The notes under the pieces are model-generated. The model was not told the DNA's origin. It saw only the letters and a list, made by a program, of their open reading frames with translations, and ran no database searches. The translations under genes and the position numbers were made by a program. A stretch of DNA of 40,801 nucleotides. It comes from Bdellovibrionota bacterium. GTDB taxonomy: Bacteria > Bdellovibrionota > UBA1018 > CAUJDS01. This document shows, one piece after another, positions 8,480-23,399 of the stretch (position 1 is its first letter; every line of letters starts with the position of its first letter). Location: contig CAUJDS010000040.1 of assembly GCA_963169695.1 (NCBI GenBank), positions 1 through 40,801 of the forward strand. Direction: 5' to 3'.

Positions 8480-9550
8480 ATGAATTCGAGATTTCAGCGT
8501 TTTAATGCTTTTTTTTGGCTCATTTTGGCGATAGGCGGATTCCTGTCTGAGGGAGCTTATGCGCAGCGGGGCGCGCGACCTTTGCGTCGTCCACAATTCT
8601 ATAAGGAGCCCCTTCCTTTTGATTCAACGAAGCCAGTCGAGCCAAGTGCAGTGGAGGAGTACATGCCTCATCCGTTCAAGGAGTGTGAGGCATTCTCCGT
8701 CGGAAAACTTCGGCGCGTCACCGTGGACCTTTCGATGCTGAACAATTGGCTCCTGGGCGGCGGAGTCGACGATGCTCATACGGTAGGCGTCTATGGCGAT
8801 CTCGCCTTTGAATTTGATCACGCGACCATTGGCGTTCGCTACAATACCGACCTCTACACCAAAGAGACACCCGATCCCCTGCAGAGCTTACAGAATGGCG
8901 AGAACGTTCGTATCCAGACCTTTCCTCAAGAAATCGTGGACCTTCAAGCTTACTTTCGGCAGGACCCCGATCCTCGAGGCAATTTCTTCGAGATTTTTGC
9001 GGGGGTAAAGTCCTGGGGCAATGACGAGAAGTGGTATGGCGCAAGGGCGTTGCAAGCAGGGACTCATGCTATTTTGGATCATTGGCACTTGGGAACTAAG
9101 AAGAAAAACTACGTCTACGGAGATGAACGCCACGATGCATTGCTAGTCGGGGCCAAGATCGGCAAGCAGTACGAAGAACCCGATCAGAAATATTGGGTCA
9201 GCGGGACCCTTGGTGCCCAACTTGCTACTTCTTTCGAAGACGCTTCGTCTATCACGGGAGAAGTGGATGGCGGCATCACGCTCTGTCGAAAGAATCTTTT
9301 TGGGGGCGAGAATCGCAATCCTTTTGCAGAACTACGAATGACCCTCCATTCCGAACGAGTGCTGAATGGCGAGGCTGAAACTTGGTTTCGTCCGGGTCTG
9401 CAATTGGATCTTTGGAAAGGCCAAGGGGGATCTAATTTGTTTTTCTTCGGCGGATACGTCGTACCAATCGAAGAGAACCATGAGATGGATGTCTACGACA
9501 ATGGCGCCAATGTGCCGATGATTCAGTTGGGCGGTCGATCCATTTTTTGA
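8480..9550 (+). CDS. Probable outer-membrane beta-barrel protein, family unknown
   Basis: The 356-residue protein starts with a signal peptide (hydrophobic core FFWLILAIGGFLSEG, cleavage likely after AYA). The mature part has alternating hydrophobic/polar strands rich in aromatic residues (FEFDHATIGVRYNTD, NFFEIFAGVKSWG, KYWVSGTLGAQLA, PFAELRMTLHSE, SNLFFFGGYVVP) and ends in ...GGRSIF. A terminal Phe is the usual BAM recognition signal of outer-membrane barrels. I cannot name the family. The signal-peptide coding region contains a T8 run at 8509-8516. The last codons overlap the beginning of a 94-bp element that is repeated upstream of the second solenoid gene. The gene precedes the two solenoid genes on the same strand, so a shared envelope function is possible but unproven. 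Confidence 0.72.
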   Translation: MNSRFQRFNAFFWLILAIGGFLSEGAYAQRGARPLRRPQFYKEPLPFDSTKPVEPSAVEEYMPHPFKECEAFSVGKLRRVTVDLSMLNNWLLGGGVDDAHTVGVYGDLAFEFDHATIGVRYNTDLYTKETPDPLQSLQNGENVRIQTFPQEIVDLQAYFRQDPDPRGNFFEIFAGVKSWGNDEKWYGARALQAGTHAILDHWHLGTKKKNYVYGDERHDALLVGAKIGKQYEEPDQKYWVSGTLGAQLATSFEDASSITGEVDGGITLCRKNLFGGENRNPFAELRMTLHSERVLNGEAETWFRPGLQLDLWKGQGGSNLFFFGGYVVPIEENHEMDVYDNGANVPMIQLGGRSIF

Positions 9551-9629
9551 TGGAACGCGATGAGAAACAGGCCCGCTTGACTCATGCGTTTTGGCGGGCT
9601 AGTTCCTAGCCATGATGAAGCGATCTTAC
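9536..9629 (+). repeat. Conserved leader element, copy 1 (94 bp direct repeat)
   Basis: This segment and 12282-12375 are identical except for three substitutions by eye (at 9598, 9603 and 9622). It covers the last five codons of the beta-barrel gene, the 61-bp intergenic region and the first six codons of the first solenoid gene. The two copies are offset by 2746 bp, one gene-plus-spacer unit. The coding sequences downstream are far more diverged than the leader. Confidence 0.9.
9577..9611 (+). promoter_or_regulatory. Possible leaderless promoter and start-adjacent hairpin, copy 1
   Basis: TTGACT (9577-9582), a 17-bp spacer and TAGTTC (9600-9605) would place a transcript start at or next to ATG 9612, giving a leaderless mRNA; the -10 is weak. 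Overlapping it is an inverted repeat GGCTAG-TTC-CTAGCC (9597-9611) abutting the ATG. A second one, GCCCGC/GCGGGC, has arms at 9571-9576 and 9594-9599. No Shine-Dalgarno is visible. The element is conserved upstream of the paralogue. Confidence 0.35.
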
Positions 9630-12194
9630 CTTTTGTTGACGATGGTTCTTTTTACTGGTTCGGCAAAGGCCAGTCATCCAAGTGTTAGTGATTGTATTGA
9701 TGCCTTAGCTTACCCGCGAGAAAGCCGTAGCCTTATTCAAACTGGCACCACTTCTACCTGGCAGGCTACCATTGCGGTGGCAGAACAGGTCGCACTTGGA
9801 AAGTTTAGGGGTGAGATATCCGATGACACACTGATAGATCTCCGAGCCGGAAGGGCGCCCGTTTTGGATTCCCGCTTGGTAGAGAAGGCTGTTCGCAACT
9901 CTTGGAATGACGGAGTCCTTCGTCGCGCTCAGTTGGATGTGGAATTTCTGGATGGAAGCCCTAGTCAGCACACGGAAGCGTTAACTCCCGCCCATGGTTG
10001 GTGGAGCCATGTGGTTCGAGGAAAGACGAATATTCGATTCGTTTCGACTGAGCATTACTTGGCGAATCTAAGAAAGTTGCCCCGTCGTTGGCTTACGGAA
10101 CTTAGTAATAGCGTAAAGTCCTTGCCACCCTTGAGCTTGGATGAAGTCATGCGAATTGCTAGCGTCCTAGATCCCGACTTACAGGAATTTTGGTTGGATT
10201 TGGTTTGGCATAAAGTCTTCACGCCTTTGGAAATGTTTCCACTAGATCGTCTGGCTACAATCTTGAGAGGTACCTCTAGAGAAGCTAGGCAGATGCTTTG
10301 GAGGCTTTCTGGCTTTGCGCTCGGCATGGAGCAGGTCCGGGGTCTCATTATGCAATGGCCCCATTTGATTCGAGAGATACAGCAGCAGGAATGGCCGATG
10401 GGGTTTAGTTTAGGGTCTGAAGTGACTAAAATCGCTCTGCCTAAGGGATCTATTCCATTGGGAATGGTGCCAGTATTGTTGAAGTGGGTGCCTGAAAACG
10501 ACTATAGATTAAGAGGACAAATCATTGCAGGAGTTGGCCGAAATACATGGGTGAATAGATTGGGAGAAAGCGGACTATTGAATTCAAAAGTAGATCATCC
10601 GCTGTTTCCGTTGACACTCCTTGAGCTTGAGCGATTGAAATTCAATATTTCTGCTATTGAGGCCGGTTCTCTTTTGGTTGAGCGGCTCGAAAATGCAAAA
10701 AGCCTTAGTGATGCGGTAGCAGTAGCGAGTGTTCGGGCACTTGATCCTTCTGCCCGATTGAGCGCTATTAAAAAATACCTTGCGAAGCAGGGCCACGCTC
10801 TTTCTGTTGAGGAATGTCAGCGCCTTGCAGAAACTGTCCCATGGGGTGATCCCTCTAGAGGTGATCTAGGTTCTCATTCCGATAGGGATGAGGTCTATTT
10901 GGCTTATTTTAGGACACAAAAAGCCAAGATGAGTCCTGAATCTGTTCGTTCATTCCTAGACCTCCTTGGTGGGTCCTCAGCGAAGAGGGAGGTAGTGGAT
11001 CAAGTGTTTGATCAAACTAGAGATCAGCTGAAGTTGGCAACTTTGGAGTCTCTTTTGCCATTTGCTTCCGAATCCGATCGCGATTCCTTCTGGAGTGAGC
11101 GGTTGAATGATTCGAATAATTTTGAGGAAGCGATAGCTGCCATGAGTAAGTTCAGTGCAGGGTTTGCTTTGAAGGGGCACCTGGTATCTGGACTGGCCGA
11201 TCGATATAAGAGCGATATGACGCTGAAGAGACTTGTTGACCTGCTCAATTTGCTGCCCGCTGGGGACGGCGCTCAGAAGAGACTGTTGGATGACTTTTGT
11301 GAAATAGTACAAGGTGCAACTCAAGTGCAACTTGTGTCCGCCATTTTCGAGCTTCGGCCTACTTCATCTGTGAGAAGTGATGTAGTGATGATTTTTCTTC
11401 GAGGCTCTATGGAATTAAGATCCTGGGAAGATGAAGTGGCTTTGTTTCGGGCGCTTGCGGGAGAGGCTTCTTTGGAGTCCTACTATGCGGCGTGGCAGGG
11501 GCATCTATCCAAGAAGTTGGATAGCATGAGCCCTGGTACCTTAGCCTCTGTTATTGAAGCGACTATGGATAAAGGAGCGAGAAGCTATACCACTTGGGCA
11601 GTTGGGATCCACAGCCAGGAGGCAGCGAGTGCAAGAAGAAGAGCCTTTGAAAGCAATGATCAGTACCTATCCGACTATGTGAGATCGAAGGCGGACGTTC
11701 TTAGTGAGCGTGACTTGGTGTCCCTGTTAAGGCTTGTCTTTGGCGGAGATGAGAAGAAGCTAGAGCTTCTCAGTTTTTGGCTGAAAGGAAGTGAGAGAGC
11801 ACTTTCCGACACAGACTGGGAGCAAATCCTTGATGGGATATCTTCAAAGCAAGGTAGGCGCGATTTGCTGAAAATAGTGGATAGTACTTCTCCCAGGGTT
11901 ATGTCGGCAAAGGCATTTGCAAGGCTAGTTAGAGACCTGCAAGAGTCTGATGACAACATAGATCGGCTTACGATGTTGTACATTCAGAGTTGGTCCAACT
12001 TGATGAATTTAGGAGAGTTGGAGGTTCTTTTGTCATCCATGAAGAATATAGAAAAAGCCAATAAGCTCCGTTTGGATTTTCTAAGATTGAGAAGGCTTGA
12101 TTTTTCAGATGAAGAAGTGCGGTCAATGCTAGGTAGCATGAGTGGGCTATCTCAGTCTGACAGAGAGGTCATGGAGGTACTTTTAGGTTTGTAG
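9612..12194 (+). CDS. Exported 33-34-residue repeat solenoid protein, paralogue 1
   Basis: This 860-residue protein begins with a signal peptide (MMKRSYLLLTMVLFTGSAKA). I recognise no named domain. From about residue 170 it consists of degenerate helical repeats. Each opens with hydrophobic-Ser/Thr-x-x-Asp/Glu-hydrophobic-x-x-hydrophobic-Leu, for example LSERDLVSLL (697), LSDTDWEQIL (731), MSAKAFARLV (764), LMNLGELEVL (797) and FSDEEVRSML (831), a period of 33-34 residues. Earlier units are at about 397, 440, 473, 536 and 639. Such periodicity suggests an alpha-solenoid used for protein binding. Residues ~165-290 (SLPPLSLDEVM, VFTPLEMFPLDRLATIL, WPHLIREIQQQEWPMGF, LPKGSIPL) are the part best conserved in the paralogue at 12358. 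It is expected in the periplasm or outside the cell. ATG 9612 (or the next codon, also ATG) matches the paralogue's start. Confidence 0.85.
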   Translation: MMKRSYLLLTMVLFTGSAKASHPSVSDCIDALAYPRESRSLIQTGTTSTWQATIAVAEQVALGKFRGEISDDTLIDLRAGRAPVLDSRLVEKAVRNSWNDGVLRRAQLDVEFLDGSPSQHTEALTPAHGWWSHVVRGKTNIRFVSTEHYLANLRKLPRRWLTELSNSVKSLPPLSLDEVMRIASVLDPDLQEFWLDLVWHKVFTPLEMFPLDRLATILRGTSREARQMLWRLSGFALGMEQVRGLIMQWPHLIREIQQQEWPMGFSLGSEVTKIALPKGSIPLGMVPVLLKWVPENDYRLRGQIIAGVGRNTWVNRLGESGLLNSKVDHPLFPLTLLELERLKFNISAIEAGSLLVERLENAKSLSDAVAVASVRALDPSARLSAIKKYLAKQGHALSVEECQRLAETVPWGDPSRGDLGSHSDRDEVYLAYFRTQKAKMSPESVRSFLDLLGGSSAKREVVDQVFDQTRDQLKLATLESLLPFASESDRDSFWSERLNDSNNFEEAIAAMSKFSAGFALKGHLVSGLADRYKSDMTLKRLVDLLNLLPAGDGAQKRLLDDFCEIVQGATQVQLVSAIFELRPTSSVRSDVVMIFLRGSMELRSWEDEVALFRALAGEASLESYYAAWQGHLSKKLDSMSPGTLASVIEATMDKGARSYTTWAVGIHSQEAASARRRAFESNDQYLSDYVRSKADVLSERDLVSLLRLVFGGDEKKLELLSFWLKGSERALSDTDWEQILDGISSKQGRRDLLKIVDSTSPRVMSAKAFARLVRDLQESDDNIDRLTMLYIQSWSNLMNLGELEVLLSSMKNIEKANKLRLDFLRLRRLDFSDEEVRSMLGSMSGLSQSDREVMEVLLGL

Positions 12195-12228
12195 TGCAGT
12201 CTTGTAGGAGGGATAGAACAGGAAGGAA

Positions 12229-12244
12229 GTGTGCCAAGGCGCAC
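12229..12244 (+). terminator. Weak hairpin after solenoid gene 1
   Basis: GTGTGC-CAAG-GCGCAC can form a 6-bp stem (one G-U) with a 4-nt loop, 35 bp after the stop of the first solenoid gene. The following bases (GCTTATATT) are AT-rich but not a T tract, so termination is uncertain. Confidence 0.25.
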
Positions 12245-12281
12245 GCTTATATTGCCAAATTGAGGCGATTAACTACCTAGC

Positions 12282-12375
12282 CGATCCATTTTTTGATGGA
12301 ACGCGATGAGAAACAGGCCCGCTTGACTCATGCGTTTTGGCGGTCTAGGTCCTAGCCATGATGAAGCAATCTTAC
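12282..12375 (+). repeat. Conserved leader element, copy 2 (94 bp direct repeat)
   Basis: This is the second copy of the element at 9536-9629, immediately before and into the second solenoid gene. Its first ~15 bp correspond to the C-terminal codons of the upstream beta-barrel gene but are non-coding here. That points to a tandem duplication whose left breakpoint lay near the end of that gene. Confidence 0.9.
12323..12357 (+). promoter_or_regulatory. Possible leaderless promoter and start-adjacent hairpin, copy 2
   Basis: TTGACT (12323-12328), 17 bp and TAGGTC (12346-12351) lie at the same offsets from ATG 12358 as in copy 1. The start-adjacent inverted repeat is kept as a CTAG-GTC-CTAG core. 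The G-rich arm of the larger GCCCGC/GCGGGC repeat carries one unpaired change here (GCGGTC). As in copy 1, no Shine-Dalgarno is visible. Confidence 0.35.
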
Positions 12376-14904
12376 TTGGTATTGGCGGGGCTCTTTCTTT
12401 CTGTTTCGGCATGGGCATTGGAGCCGCAAGATTGCGCGGGTGTTTTTGGGGTTGCGACGGGACATGAGAGGCTTCTGGACCCCGATGATTCTTGGGGCCG
12501 ACAGGTAGCAGTCGCGGAGCAGTACTTTCTGGGGAAGCTCCAGGGCCGACTATTGCAGAATGCCGCGGATGCCCTGCTTAATGGAGAAGGGCCTAAGCTC
12601 GCTGATGACTTATTCGATACTGCGGAGCTAAGCTCGAAATACGATGGTGCTCTGGGGCGTGCTATCCAAGAATTCAATGCTGCAGGTGAACCGTCACGAA
12701 GGGATAATGAAGCTCCACCCAGGAATTATTCGGACACTTGGCCAGTTAGCTGGTGGGAGTCTCGCGTTCTTGGGAAAGCTCGGTTTGAATTCAGTACCGC
12801 GGAGGAGCTTGTCGCGCAATTGGGGAGTCTCAAAGAAAAGCAAAGACTCGGAGAACTTTCTAATGTCGCGAAGACCATGCCACCTTTAACGCTAGAAGAG
12901 ACTCTGCGGATCCTCGGGGCACTTCCCGAATGGGCCCAGTCGGAGGGGCTCACGAAGCTTTGGCCCAGAGTATTTACTCCCGTGACGATGTTGCCATTGG
13001 ATTACCTTGCAACGATCTTAGCCCGTACTTCACCCACACTGAGGCAAGCGTTATGGCGCCAGTCAAAGTTTGAGCTTACCCCTCAGCGGGTTCGAGCCCT
13101 GATCGTCCATTGGCCTCATCTTATTCGTGAAGTGCAAGAGCAGGGCTGGCCTATGGGATTTGCATTTGCGGAGAACCTGGATTCCATGCACTTGCCCAAG
13201 GGTTCCATTCCAATAAGCGTCCTTCCAAGCCTGCTCAATTGGATTCCCAACAGAAAGCCTTTGTTCAGTATCTTGCTTAGGAAAAATGAAGATGCTCATT
13301 CCGTTTTTGCGCAGAAGCTCCAGACGAGTGGGCTCTTGAGTTTTGATCGTAAGGATCAAGCGGGCGCGTCGGACCGTGATGAAACTTTTGAGGTCATAAG
13401 TCGCTATCCTTTTGAGAACCGAGCCCATCTCGTCATGCAACATATTGAAAGTGCAAGAAGTGCGGAAAAGGCAATTGAGTGGGCCGCTGGGACTGGTTTT
13501 CTGGATGCCGAACAGCGTGCGGAGGCACTACTTGGCTTTTTTAAAAAAAATCGGGCTAACCTTAGCTTAGCCGAGTGCAGAAAAATTGCGCATGAAGTTT
13601 CAGATGACTACAGTTCCGCTGATCGGGTTTATAAAATGTTTTTGGATGATCATCGGGGCACTCTGACATTAGGAGAGAAGGTTCAAATCATCCATTCACT
13701 GCTCACTTCCGCCGCAAAAAATTCAGTGCTTGGTCAGTTTGTGGAAGATGCCAAAGATTCTTATGATTCGCTCAAAGCCTTAGAAAACCTTGTAGACTTT
13801 GGATATGAGGAAACCAGAAATAGGTATTATACTTTAATGGCGCAGAGGTCGACTAGCCCCGAAGAGCAAATTCAATTAATCGCAAAAATCAAAGGCAATT
13901 CGACGCAACTTGATATGCTTGCAGCTGATGTTTTGCGCCAATTGGTAGGTAGGTATGTTCCATTGGATGATGTGGTGAATTTGCTAAACAGAATCGAAGA
14001 TGCATCTACTCGGTTAGAGCTCTTGGGGTTGTTCGAAGAACGTTTCCGCTCGGAAGACTTGGCCAATGTTCCGCGCCCGGCGGAACGACTGATTCACTTG
14101 AATACGATTGAACAAGTCATTGATTGGAGTAGCACTAGGGTTGATCAAGGATTTTCTCTTGCTTCGGTCCAGCCGCTGCTAAAGGTATTGGCCGAGAGGT
14201 CCTTGGAGGGATTTCAACGGACTGTAAAAGCGAGGATATTGGACCCTAAAATCAAGACCCTTACTGCAGAAGAAGTCAGTATGATTCTTTCTTTGGGAGA
14301 AGAGCGGATACAAAGAGCTGGTCAATCGCTCGACTCGGAAGCGGTGGCTGCATACGAAGCCTTTGTGGATGAATACCTTGTGCGATTTGTGAACGCCAAT
14401 AAGGTGAGACTTACCTTCGAAGACGTTTTGTCGCTTTCGAAGTTATCTTTCTATTCGGATTGCGATCATCAGATGTTCGTAGCGTGGTTGGGTCATTCCG
14501 GCTATAACTTGACCCCTGCCGATCTCATGAGGATGGTCTCTGTGTTTAGGGACGGGGATGATGTGGTGAAGTTTCTTCAAAGTGTTTTGGAACTCAACCT
14601 GAGTGCCCTCACCGTTGATGATTTTCTGAATATTTGCGCTGATCGCATTAAAGAAGCAGGGGAGAAGGATCAATTGATAGCTGACTTCGAAAGTAAGCAT
14701 GCTGCAGAATTAAGCCCAACTGCTGTTCAGGACCTGATTAACCTCATGGAAGACGAAGACCGGGGTAAATTGGTCTGGCACGACTACCTGAGCGGTCAAA
14801 GCGAGCGTTTCAGAACTGCAGAAATTAAAGAATTGCTGGACTCCATGCAGCTTGAAGCCGGTGATCGATCGGTCTTAGAGTTGATGTTGAGACGGCGACA
14901 GTAG
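12358..14904 (+). CDS. Exported 33-34-residue repeat solenoid protein, paralogue 2
   Basis: This 848-residue paralogue of the 9612 gene has the same MMK-start signal peptide (cleavage near SAWA) and the same order of landmarks: MPPLTLEETLRIL, VFTPVTMLPLDYLATILART, WPHLIREVQEQGWPMGF and LPKGSIPI. Repeat units are very regular at the C-terminus: LTFEDVLSL (685), LTPADLMRM (718), LTVDDFLNI (751), LSPTAVQDL (785) and FRTAEIKEL (818), spaced 33-34. Another set lies at about 402, 436, 468, 499 and 534. The N-terminal third is clearly alignable with paralogue 1; the repeats are much more diverged. A T6A8 run at 13537-13550 lies in frame within the gene. Function is unknown; an exported protein-binding scaffold is my inference. 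Confidence 0.85.
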   Translation: MMKQSYLVLAGLFLSVSAWALEPQDCAGVFGVATGHERLLDPDDSWGRQVAVAEQYFLGKLQGRLLQNAADALLNGEGPKLADDLFDTAELSSKYDGALGRAIQEFNAAGEPSRRDNEAPPRNYSDTWPVSWWESRVLGKARFEFSTAEELVAQLGSLKEKQRLGELSNVAKTMPPLTLEETLRILGALPEWAQSEGLTKLWPRVFTPVTMLPLDYLATILARTSPTLRQALWRQSKFELTPQRVRALIVHWPHLIREVQEQGWPMGFAFAENLDSMHLPKGSIPISVLPSLLNWIPNRKPLFSILLRKNEDAHSVFAQKLQTSGLLSFDRKDQAGASDRDETFEVISRYPFENRAHLVMQHIESARSAEKAIEWAAGTGFLDAEQRAEALLGFFKKNRANLSLAECRKIAHEVSDDYSSADRVYKMFLDDHRGTLTLGEKVQIIHSLLTSAAKNSVLGQFVEDAKDSYDSLKALENLVDFGYEETRNRYYTLMAQRSTSPEEQIQLIAKIKGNSTQLDMLAADVLRQLVGRYVPLDDVVNLLNRIEDASTRLELLGLFEERFRSEDLANVPRPAERLIHLNTIEQVIDWSSTRVDQGFSLASVQPLLKVLAERSLEGFQRTVKARILDPKIKTLTAEEVSMILSLGEERIQRAGQSLDSEAVAAYEAFVDEYLVRFVNANKVRLTFEDVLSLSKLSFYSDCDHQMFVAWLGHSGYNLTPADLMRMVSVFRDGDDVVKFLQSVLELNLSALTVDDFLNICADRIKEAGEKDQLIADFESKHAAELSPTAVQDLINLMEDEDRGKLVWHDYLSGQSERFRTAEIKELLDSMQLEAGDRSVLELMLRRRQ

Positions 14905-20623: not shown

Positions 20624-21994
20624 CTACTGATTTTCGTACGCCCCGATATCGCAAGTGGTAGCTCGGAAGTAGTTTCGTTGGTCGACGGTAGGACAATAAG
20701 TGGCGCTTCCAGTTCCGTCCGCGGATCCTCCTGCAGTTATAGAGGCGGTGTCAGAGTATCCGCCATTGCTCGCTGGAACGCTGAGGCCAGGGTTGGTTGT
20801 CGAGTCGGACGCATGAGTGGTGCAGTTAGAGGAATCGTCAAAGATATTATTTCCCAGTGAGTTCATGGTTCCGGCAATGCTGCAGGTCGTGCTTGGGCCG
20901 GACGTATCCCATAGGATGGAGTTGGCAATAGTGAAAACTCCGCCCGTGTTTTGGCGAAACATGTCGCCCGGGCTACCGCCGCCGACGTTGGAAAGCATGG
21001 TTACGTTGTAGAAGTTTACGGTGGCACTATTGTCGGTGTACATCACTGCAGCTTGTGTGGCGCTATTGCCGTAGAAAGTCGTGTTAGTGATAGTAGCTGT
21101 GGTTGGCTCGGTTCCGTCGATCACCAAGGCACCACCCGTGCTGGCCCCCGTGTTGTTTTGGAATAGAACACGAGTCAGGGTATGAACTCCTCCGCTGTCA
21201 CCGCCGCCGAACCAAGCTCCTGCACCCAGGGCACTTGCCTGATTATCCTTGAAGACCGTGTCGCTTATGGAGAGTTGATTAAACCCCCCTGCAATAGCTC
21301 CACCGTTAGCTGCCGAATTGCTGGAAAAAGTGGAGCAACTAACCGTGAGGCTCGGGTCGAGGTTGCCAAAGTTGTTGTCGATAGTGATCGCGCCACCGCC
21401 ACCCGTAACCACATTGTCTTTGAAGGTCATGTAACTCACGTTGACAGTTCCACCTACGAGGAAGAATGCGCCGCCATCGGTAGCAGCATTGGCATTCTGA
21501 AGTGTGAAGTTATGCAGTCCAATGGTGAGGCCTGGGTTTCCACACTGAAGAATCTGAAAAGCGTTTCCGCCCGAGACTATAGAAGTCGTAGGACTGCCTC
21601 CGACAATAGTTACGGAACTTCCAACGACAATCTTAGCGCCAACTACGATGGTCAATCCCGCCGGAATTTTGATGATCTTACCGCCGCCCAAAGCATCGGA
21701 TTCCTCGACTGCAGCTCGAAGTGAGCAGTCTCCGCCGCCGTCGTCGCAGATTCCATCACCGGGTACGGCGTCTCCAATGTCAGTATTGGCGGTAATTGTA
21801 AAGTCTGGCGTGGGTTGGGTATACCCAGGGCAGGTTGAAACCGAAGTTGCCGTTGCAGTCGTTGTTGATGTCCCACTAGTTGAAGTGGCGACTGATGTGT
21901 TGATTCTGACCGCGCAGCCCGAGCTCAACATGACTGCGATGAAGATGATCGCCCACTTCATTTCGTTCACTTTTTTGTAATTAAATTTAATCAT
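20624..21994 (-). CDS. Beta-helix lipoprotein with CSLREA-like element, paralogue A
   Basis: This 456-residue predicted lipoprotein has the lipobox MLSSGC (lipidated Cys about residue 27, followed by AVRIN) and a Ser/Thr-rich linker. A CSLREA-type element follows (GDGICDDGGGDCSLRAAVEE, about 79-98). The rest is strand-turn repeats rich in Asn, Gly, Thr and Ser (NFTLQNANAATDGGAFF, STFSSNSAANGGAIAGG), typical of right-handed parallel beta-helices. It ends in DQRNYFRATTCDIGAYENQ, like choice-of-anchor-Q proteins. It is expected to be surface-exposed and possibly carbohydrate-binding or adhesive; no enzymatic residues are recognised. ATG 21994 begins 1 nt after the upstream paralogue's stop; ATG 21961 would give a shorter lipoprotein signal and is possible. 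It is a tandem duplicate of the next gene. Confidence 0.85.
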   Translation of the reverse strand: MIKFNYKKVNEMKWAIIFIAVMLSSGCAVRINTSVATSTSGTSTTTATATSVSTCPGYTQPTPDFTITANTDIGDAVPGDGICDDGGGDCSLRAAVEESDALGGGKIIKIPAGLTIVVGAKIVVGSSVTIVGGSPTTSIVSGGNAFQILQCGNPGLTIGLHNFTLQNANAATDGGAFFLVGGTVNVSYMTFKDNVVTGGGGAITIDNNFGNLDPSLTVSCSTFSSNSAANGGAIAGGFNQLSISDTVFKDNQASALGAGAWFGGGDSGGVHTLTRVLFQNNTGASTGGALVIDGTEPTTATITNTTFYGNSATQAAVMYTDNSATVNFYNVTMLSNVGGGSPGDMFRQNTGGVFTIANSILWDTSGPSTTCSIAGTMNSLGNNIFDDSSNCTTHASDSTTNPGLSVPASNGGYSDTASITAGGSADGTGSATYCPTVDQRNYFRATTCDIGAYENQ

Positions 21995-21995
21995 C

Positions 21996-23399
21996 TTACT
22001 GACTTTCATACGCACCGATATCACAGGTCGCAGCGCGATCGTAGTTTCGTTGGTCGGCGGTAGGACAGTACGCTGAATCTGCACCGCCATCCGCAGCACC
22101 CGAAGCTGTAATCGCAATCGACTTGGTGAATCCACCGTTTGCAGCGGAGACACCCAGGCCTGGATCGGTGGCAATGTCGGATGCGTCCGTGGAGCAGTTG
22201 GTTGAGTCCTCGAAGATATTGTGTCCCAAGGAATTCATCGTTCCTGCAATGCTACAAATATTGGCGGGCCCAGAAGAATCCCACAGGATAGAATTCGCAA
22301 TATTAAACGTACCGCCAGTATTGATAGTAAATATGGCAGAAGGCCCAGCTACTCCAGAATTGGTCAGCATCGTATTGTTATAAAAGTGCGTGGTTGTATT
22401 ATTGTCTGTGTAAAGTACGGACGCACCATTGGCAGAATTACTGTAAAAGGTAGAATTGGTTATCGTTGCCGCAATGGGATTTGACCCATCGAATGCTAGT
22501 GCAGCGCTCGTTCCGGTTGCGTTCGTATTGCCTTCAAAATAGGTTCGATTTAAGGTGTGAGTCGCGGCAGTATTGGCGCCACCGAAATAGAATCCGGCTC
22601 CGATAAACGTCGCAATATTGTTGGTAAAGATCACATCTGTCAGCGTCAGTGTCTTAACTCCTCCTACCATTGCGCCACCACTTACTGCTGAATTGCCGTT
22701 GAAGGTACTGCAAGTGATGCTTAAAACGGGGTCAAGTGATGCGAAATTATTGCTGAGTGATAGTGCGCCGCCATCTGCAGTACTGACATTGTTACTAAAA
22801 GTCATATAAGAAAAACTGAGGTTGCCACCCGTTGCGGAAATGCCTGCTCCATTACTTGCGCTTGATCCGTTTTGGATCGTGAAATTATGAAATTCAAAGT
22901 CAGTTCCGGCATTGGAAGAATTGAAGACCCTTACAGCAGCTCCACCCGAAACAATTGAAGTCGTTTGGCTTCCTCCAAAAATGGCAAGATTGCTGACAAA
23001 TTGAATTGAGGAGCCTACGGTAATCGTCATTCCAGCTGGAATCTTGATGGTCATTCCGCCACCCATTCCATCTGATTCTTCGACTGCAGCTCGAAGGGTA
23101 CAATTACCGCCCCCATCGTCGCAAATTCCGTCGCCGGCTACTGCGTCGCTGGTGTCGCCGTTGCTATTGATCGTAAAGTCTGGGGTCGGTTCGGTATATC
23201 CTGAGCAGACGGCAGTATAGGCAGCAGAACTTCCTGTACTAGTGGTGGTAGTCGAGCCCGTCGTCACTTCCAGCGCTTTATTCACTTTAATGGCGCAACC
23301 TGTGCTTAAGAGCATGGCCGTCAGGCTCGCTAATAATCCCAAGCCTGATGCTTGGGTTCGCTGAATTAAAAAGGGTGTATTGATCTTCAAACGTTCCAC
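21996..23399 (-). CDS. Beta-helix lipoprotein with CSLREA-like element, paralogue B
   Basis: This 467-residue paralogue of the gene at 20624 has a 34-residue lipoprotein signal with lipobox LLSTGC (C35, then AIKVN), a Thr/Ser-rich linker (STTTTSTGSSAA), the CSLREA-like GDGICDDGGGNCTLRAAVEE (89-108) and the same succession of Asn/Gly/Ser-rich beta-helix turns. It ends in DQRNYDRAATCDIGAYESQ. The start is GTG 23399, supported by AAGGACGGG about 5-12 nt upstream. It is transcribed first of the pair. The two proteins align over their full length with only small gaps, so the duplication is fairly old but well preserved. The intergenic region upstream holds the 50-bp palindrome. Confidence 0.87.
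   Translation of the reverse strand: MERLKINTPFLIQRTQASGLGLLASLTAMLLSTGCAIKVNKALEVTTGSTTTTSTGSSAAYTAVCSGYTEPTPDFTINSNGDTSDAVAGDGICDDGGGNCTLRAAVEESDGMGGGMTIKIPAGMTITVGSSIQFVSNLAIFGGSQTTSIVSGGAAVRVFNSSNAGTDFEFHNFTIQNGSSASNGAGISATGGNLSFSYMTFSNNVSTADGGALSLSNNFASLDPVLSITCSTFNGNSAVSGGAMVGGVKTLTLTDVIFTNNIATFIGAGFYFGGANTAATHTLNRTYFEGNTNATGTSAALAFDGSNPIAATITNSTFYSNSANGASVLYTDNNTTTHFYNNTMLTNSGVAGPSAIFTINTGGTFNIANSILWDSSGPANICSIAGTMNSLGHNIFEDSTNCSTDASDIATDPGLGVSAANGGFTKSIAITASGAADGGADSAYCPTADQRNYDRAATCDIGAYESQ

Follow-up and report, generated by a model that had tools for sequence, protein, structure and literature searches.

Why are 94 bases in front of two neighbouring genes almost identical, while the long proteins that follow have drifted far apart? 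The two genes, here called A and B, lie in tandem in the window, that is, the whole stretch of 40,801 nucleotides that was analysed. The features on which the question turns are these:

8480..9550, + strand: upstream gene, an open reading frame of 356 aa whose last 15 bases lie within leader copy 1.
9536..9629, + strand: leader copy 1, made of the upstream gene's last 15 coding bases, 61 intergenic bases and the first 18 bases of gene A; 91/94 bases equal to copy 2.
9612..12194, + strand: gene A, 860 aa, with a signal peptide recognised by eye and a predicted all-helical body.
9630..9671, + strand: fading signal-peptide part, 26/42 bases equal to 12376-12417 (P ~1.6e-5 against composition).
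12195..12282, + strand: A-B intergenic stretch before copy 2, ending in CCTAGCC; possible remnant of an older leader of B.
12282..12375, + strand: leader copy 2, whose last 18 bases are the start of gene B; 91/94 bases equal to copy 1.
12358..14904, + strand: gene B, 848 aa, diverged tandem paralogue of A.

The first-pass annotation had placed the near-identical leaders at exactly these coordinates with three differing bases, and both points are confirmed. The differences are at 9598 (G/T), 9603 (T/G) and 9622 (G/A). The first 62 bases are invariant and all three differences fall in the last 32, nearest the diverged genes. Judged by their sequences, A and B are certain homologues, with 28% protein identity over 905 alignment columns (E 2e-72). 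Identity reaches about 50% around residues 165-295; elsewhere most blocks of 60 columns have about 12-30%. The earlier description, that only parts of the N-terminal third can be clearly aligned, is roughly right for the better conserved region, but the BLAST alignment covers the whole length. Within identical amino acids 23 of 101 fourfold sites are equal, so the neutral sites of the pair are saturated. The leader lies far above these neutral sites (91/94 versus 23/101). If its identity were 32%, the upper 95% limit from the A/B fourfold sites, the probability of 91 matches in 94 would be ~4e-41. Expressed as distance, neutral sites of A and B are at least ~1.8 substitutions per site apart (a lower limit), compared with 0.033 in the leader. 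The contrast between near-identical leaders and diverged bodies is real and statistically overwhelming. Given saturated gene bodies, either the ancestor of the leader copies is far more recent or the leader is under extreme constraint.

The edges of the tract are informative. On the left, at 9536/12282, the edge is sharp and identity falls straight to background (4/15, then 0/15). On the right, similarity crosses the ATG and fades across the signal peptide, with 10/15, 8/15 and 12/15 equal bases in consecutive blocks past the leader and background from ~9671. Over the first 20 alignment columns, 6 of the 8 residues that A and B share use the same codon, versus 68 of 224 after column 10. No special constraint, the annotation had argued, would be needed if synonymous sites in the N-terminal coding regions were as similar as the leader; this is the case for the first few codons, but not for the gene bodies. 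The edges are thus independent of functional boundaries, the left lying within the codons of the upstream gene and the right fading inside the signal peptide. The last 15 bases of that gene (CGA TCC ATT TTT TGA) are inside the tract and perfect in copy 2, where, as had been pointed out, they are non-coding and intergenic.

Recent copying of A's leader region onto B is the best fit to these observations and probably accounts for them. It is favoured because the end of a neighbouring gene is preserved perfectly in a non-coding copy, because the similarity overruns the limits of the leader into the start codon, the signal peptide and early synonymous codons, because the substitutions weaken a predicted stem in copy 2, and because the leader is marked neither as a known RNA nor as a dispersed element. 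Coding bases of the upstream gene that code for nothing in copy 2 make copy 1 the likely source, so the direction would be from A to B. Between the two explanations first offered, gene conversion and purifying selection, homogenisation by recent copying is therefore the better supported; strong purifying selection fares worse, with unneeded codons kept and a stem weakened. The near-identity is most simply the result of ordinary recombination between old tandem paralogues and not evidence for a new control element. The leader would look conserved through its youth rather than through special constraint. That the exchange was recent is judged from one genome, neither gene being found in relatives.

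Under recent copying, A and B would be old tandem paralogues. Much later, intrachromosomal recombination (ectopic gene conversion or leader transfer) would have given B a 5′ region taken from A, running from the last codons of the upstream gene across the intergenic leader into the start of the coding sequence. On its right side the exchange would end within homologous sequence, around the start codon and signal peptide. On its left side it could end at the boundary of the old duplication, through one or perhaps several rounds of gene conversion, or at a non-homologous junction directly behind an older CCTAGCC. This 7-mer lies at 12276-12282, the exact junction before copy 2, whose first base it overlaps. 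It is also the 3′ end of both leaders (9605-9611 and 12351-12357) and, outside the leaders and the junction, occurs once on both strands of the 40.8-kb window. Its position suggests an insertion between the end of B's older leader and B's ATG. In that case CCTAGCC would already have preceded the ATG of B, and 75 bases from the leader of A would have come to lie between the two. One-sided conversion could have done this, with repair begun in the homologous start region and closed by a non-homologous join; so could a duplication of A, if a subsequent deletion then fused the leader of the A copy to B. The 7-mer was noticed post hoc and is a clue to the route, not proof. Beyond it, the supposed old leader of B resembles A's leader no more than chance allows (~20-40% of random segments do as well), so a full old leader upstream of copy 2 is rejected and the 7-mer alone is notable. 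It also counts against the old-leader reading that CCTAGCC before ATGATGAAG must have been common to both genes before the event, despite their saturated bodies.

Among the alternatives, the leader could have a regulatory role, as promoter, operator, leader peptide or RNA switch, and strong purifying selection could have preserved it ever since A and B arose by an ancient tandem duplication, so that the two stay co-regulated; this is unlikely. The invariant first 62 bases speak for it, as does a hairpin in this part, AACGCGATGAG/CTCATGCGTT, which both copies keep. Both also keep a 19-codon open reading frame (MERDEKQARLTHAFWRASS / MERDEKQARLTHAFWRSRS) at 9550-9609 and 12296-12355. Its ATG overlaps the TGA of the upstream gene (TGATG) and it stops two bases short of the start codon of A or B, neither of which has a strong Shine-Dalgarno sequence close to its start. 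The small frame possibly serves translational coupling, or is there by chance. Selection would require, however, a base-level constraint far above that of the best-conserved coding block, extending even to former codons that are non-coding in copy 2. The two substitutions that precede the genes also change two residues of the 19-codon frame. Both are located in the 3′ part of the leader, which in copy 1 is predicted to pair close to the start codon; for the 53-base start-proximal fold the predicted energy is -18.9 kcal/mol in copy 1 versus -12.3 in copy 2, a loss of ~6.6. Predicted folds of the leader lie within ~2 sd of shuffles and none stands out strongly. No sigma-70-like site was found in the leader, and with no Rfam match up to E 5 a known RNA family is rejected as its identity. 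A more specific form of the idea, that the 94 bases form a control unit under constraint (such as a coupled leader peptide of 19 codons with alternative hairpins) through which two orphan exported helical-repeat genes were co-controlled while their bodies diversified, is distinctly improbable. If selection were nevertheless true, a gene family without known relatives would be governed by a control element of unusual strictness.

Recent tandem duplication followed by replacement of one body with a distant homologue, leaving a young leader and start, is a rather unlikely alternative that would likewise leave an identical leader, a similar signal peptide and a diverged body; a leader cassette with exchanged bodies has been described for the erp genes of Borrelia (PMC10016077). 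Neither body stands out, however, and it is mildly against replacement that GC3 and codon-usage scores are nearly equal (0.465 and -0.003 for A, 0.492 and 0.003 for B). With no compositional contrast between A and B, a foreign origin of one body is rejected. Both genes have the lowest codon-usage scores in the window. Downstream of A and of B the sequences show no significant similarity to each other (P 0.08), which is again mildly unfavourable, as a recent duplication could leave a shared 3′ flank.

None of the collections searched yielded a donor homologue, which also counts against replacement. Each gene is the other's sole homologue within the genome. None was found for A or B in 58 relatives (genomes of the class), in 369 genomes of the phylum or in viral contigs, nor for gene A in plasmids. 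Two GTDB pattern scans of 84,980 species, which reach close relatives best and could let distant homologues escape, were likewise negative. This genome is the sole member of its family among those compared. Pfam and NCBIfam give no family above the cut-off for either protein. The structure model of gene A is all-helical, with successive helix pairs, at low confidence (pLDDT 58.9, pTM 0.31), and Foldseek returns only generic helical solenoids for it (TM at most 0.24 by query length among the matches listed), which point to no function. A and B (9612-14904) thus look like orphan genes, each with a predicted all-helical body behind a signal peptide.

An assembly artefact, in which the leader was duplicated in silico, is highly improbable: the genome is a fragmented draft of 82 contigs and the window is one whole contig, but the copies differ at three bases, and sequencing reads, as a general rule, are longer than 94 bases. 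The annotation had proposed a search for further copies of the element. Genome-wide there are two loci in all and no third, as expected of a local event, and a mobile or dispersed repeat is rejected. A 24-base match to the leader on contig C11 sits within an unrelated open reading frame.

The neighbourhood offers a second tandem pair for comparison. On the - strand, 20624-22174 and 21996-23399 encode paralogues with 53% identity and choice-of-anchor Q C-terminal domains. Their fourfold sites are equal at 44 of 136 positions and 30-codon blocks contain no near-identical patch, so a general homogenisation of tandem paralogues in this genome is rejected. Between 5953 and 20612, eight consecutive genes with short gaps lie on the + strand in the order FAD oxidoreductase/GcvT-like, unassigned, A, B, subtilase, amidohydrolase, thymidine kinase and Na/H exchanger, and are perhaps partly co-transcribed. 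The product of the gene at 8480-9550, previously described as a beta-barrel, has no Pfam or NCBIfam match, which speaks neither for nor against that description, and no homologue in the 58 genomes of the class.

The A-B leader has its nearest parallels in two known systems; no direct precedent for a homogenised leader before diverged bacterial tandem paralogues was found in the literature. The erp genes of Borrelia (ospE/ospF/elp) have a common promoter/leader region before differing bodies (PMC10016077). They resemble the present pair in that conserved upstream sequence and the start of a leader peptide precede strongly different protein bodies (PMC10016077). They are, however, a prophage-plasmid family with many members and known regulators, whereas A and B are a single neighbouring pair, their leader occurs nowhere else in the genome, and no regulator is known for them. 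A leader cassette family of the erp kind has many loci with one leader and different bodies; here there are two loci only. Gene conversion between long bacterial repeats is established, for example in the rRNA operons of E. coli (PMC8022953). Unlike these operons, the tract here is ~94 bases long, mostly non-coding and shared by two single genes 2.7 kb apart, and the event is deduced rather than observed. It counts against such an exchange that homologous recombination is less favoured over ~94 bases, or when one-sided, than between the long repeats of those known cases. The likeness lies in local near-identity that stems from non-reciprocal copying within one genome (PMC8022953). If the A-B leader arose in this way, it is a clear case in which near-identity between non-coding leaders says little about functional constraint, since old paralogues can acquire it through a short exchange.
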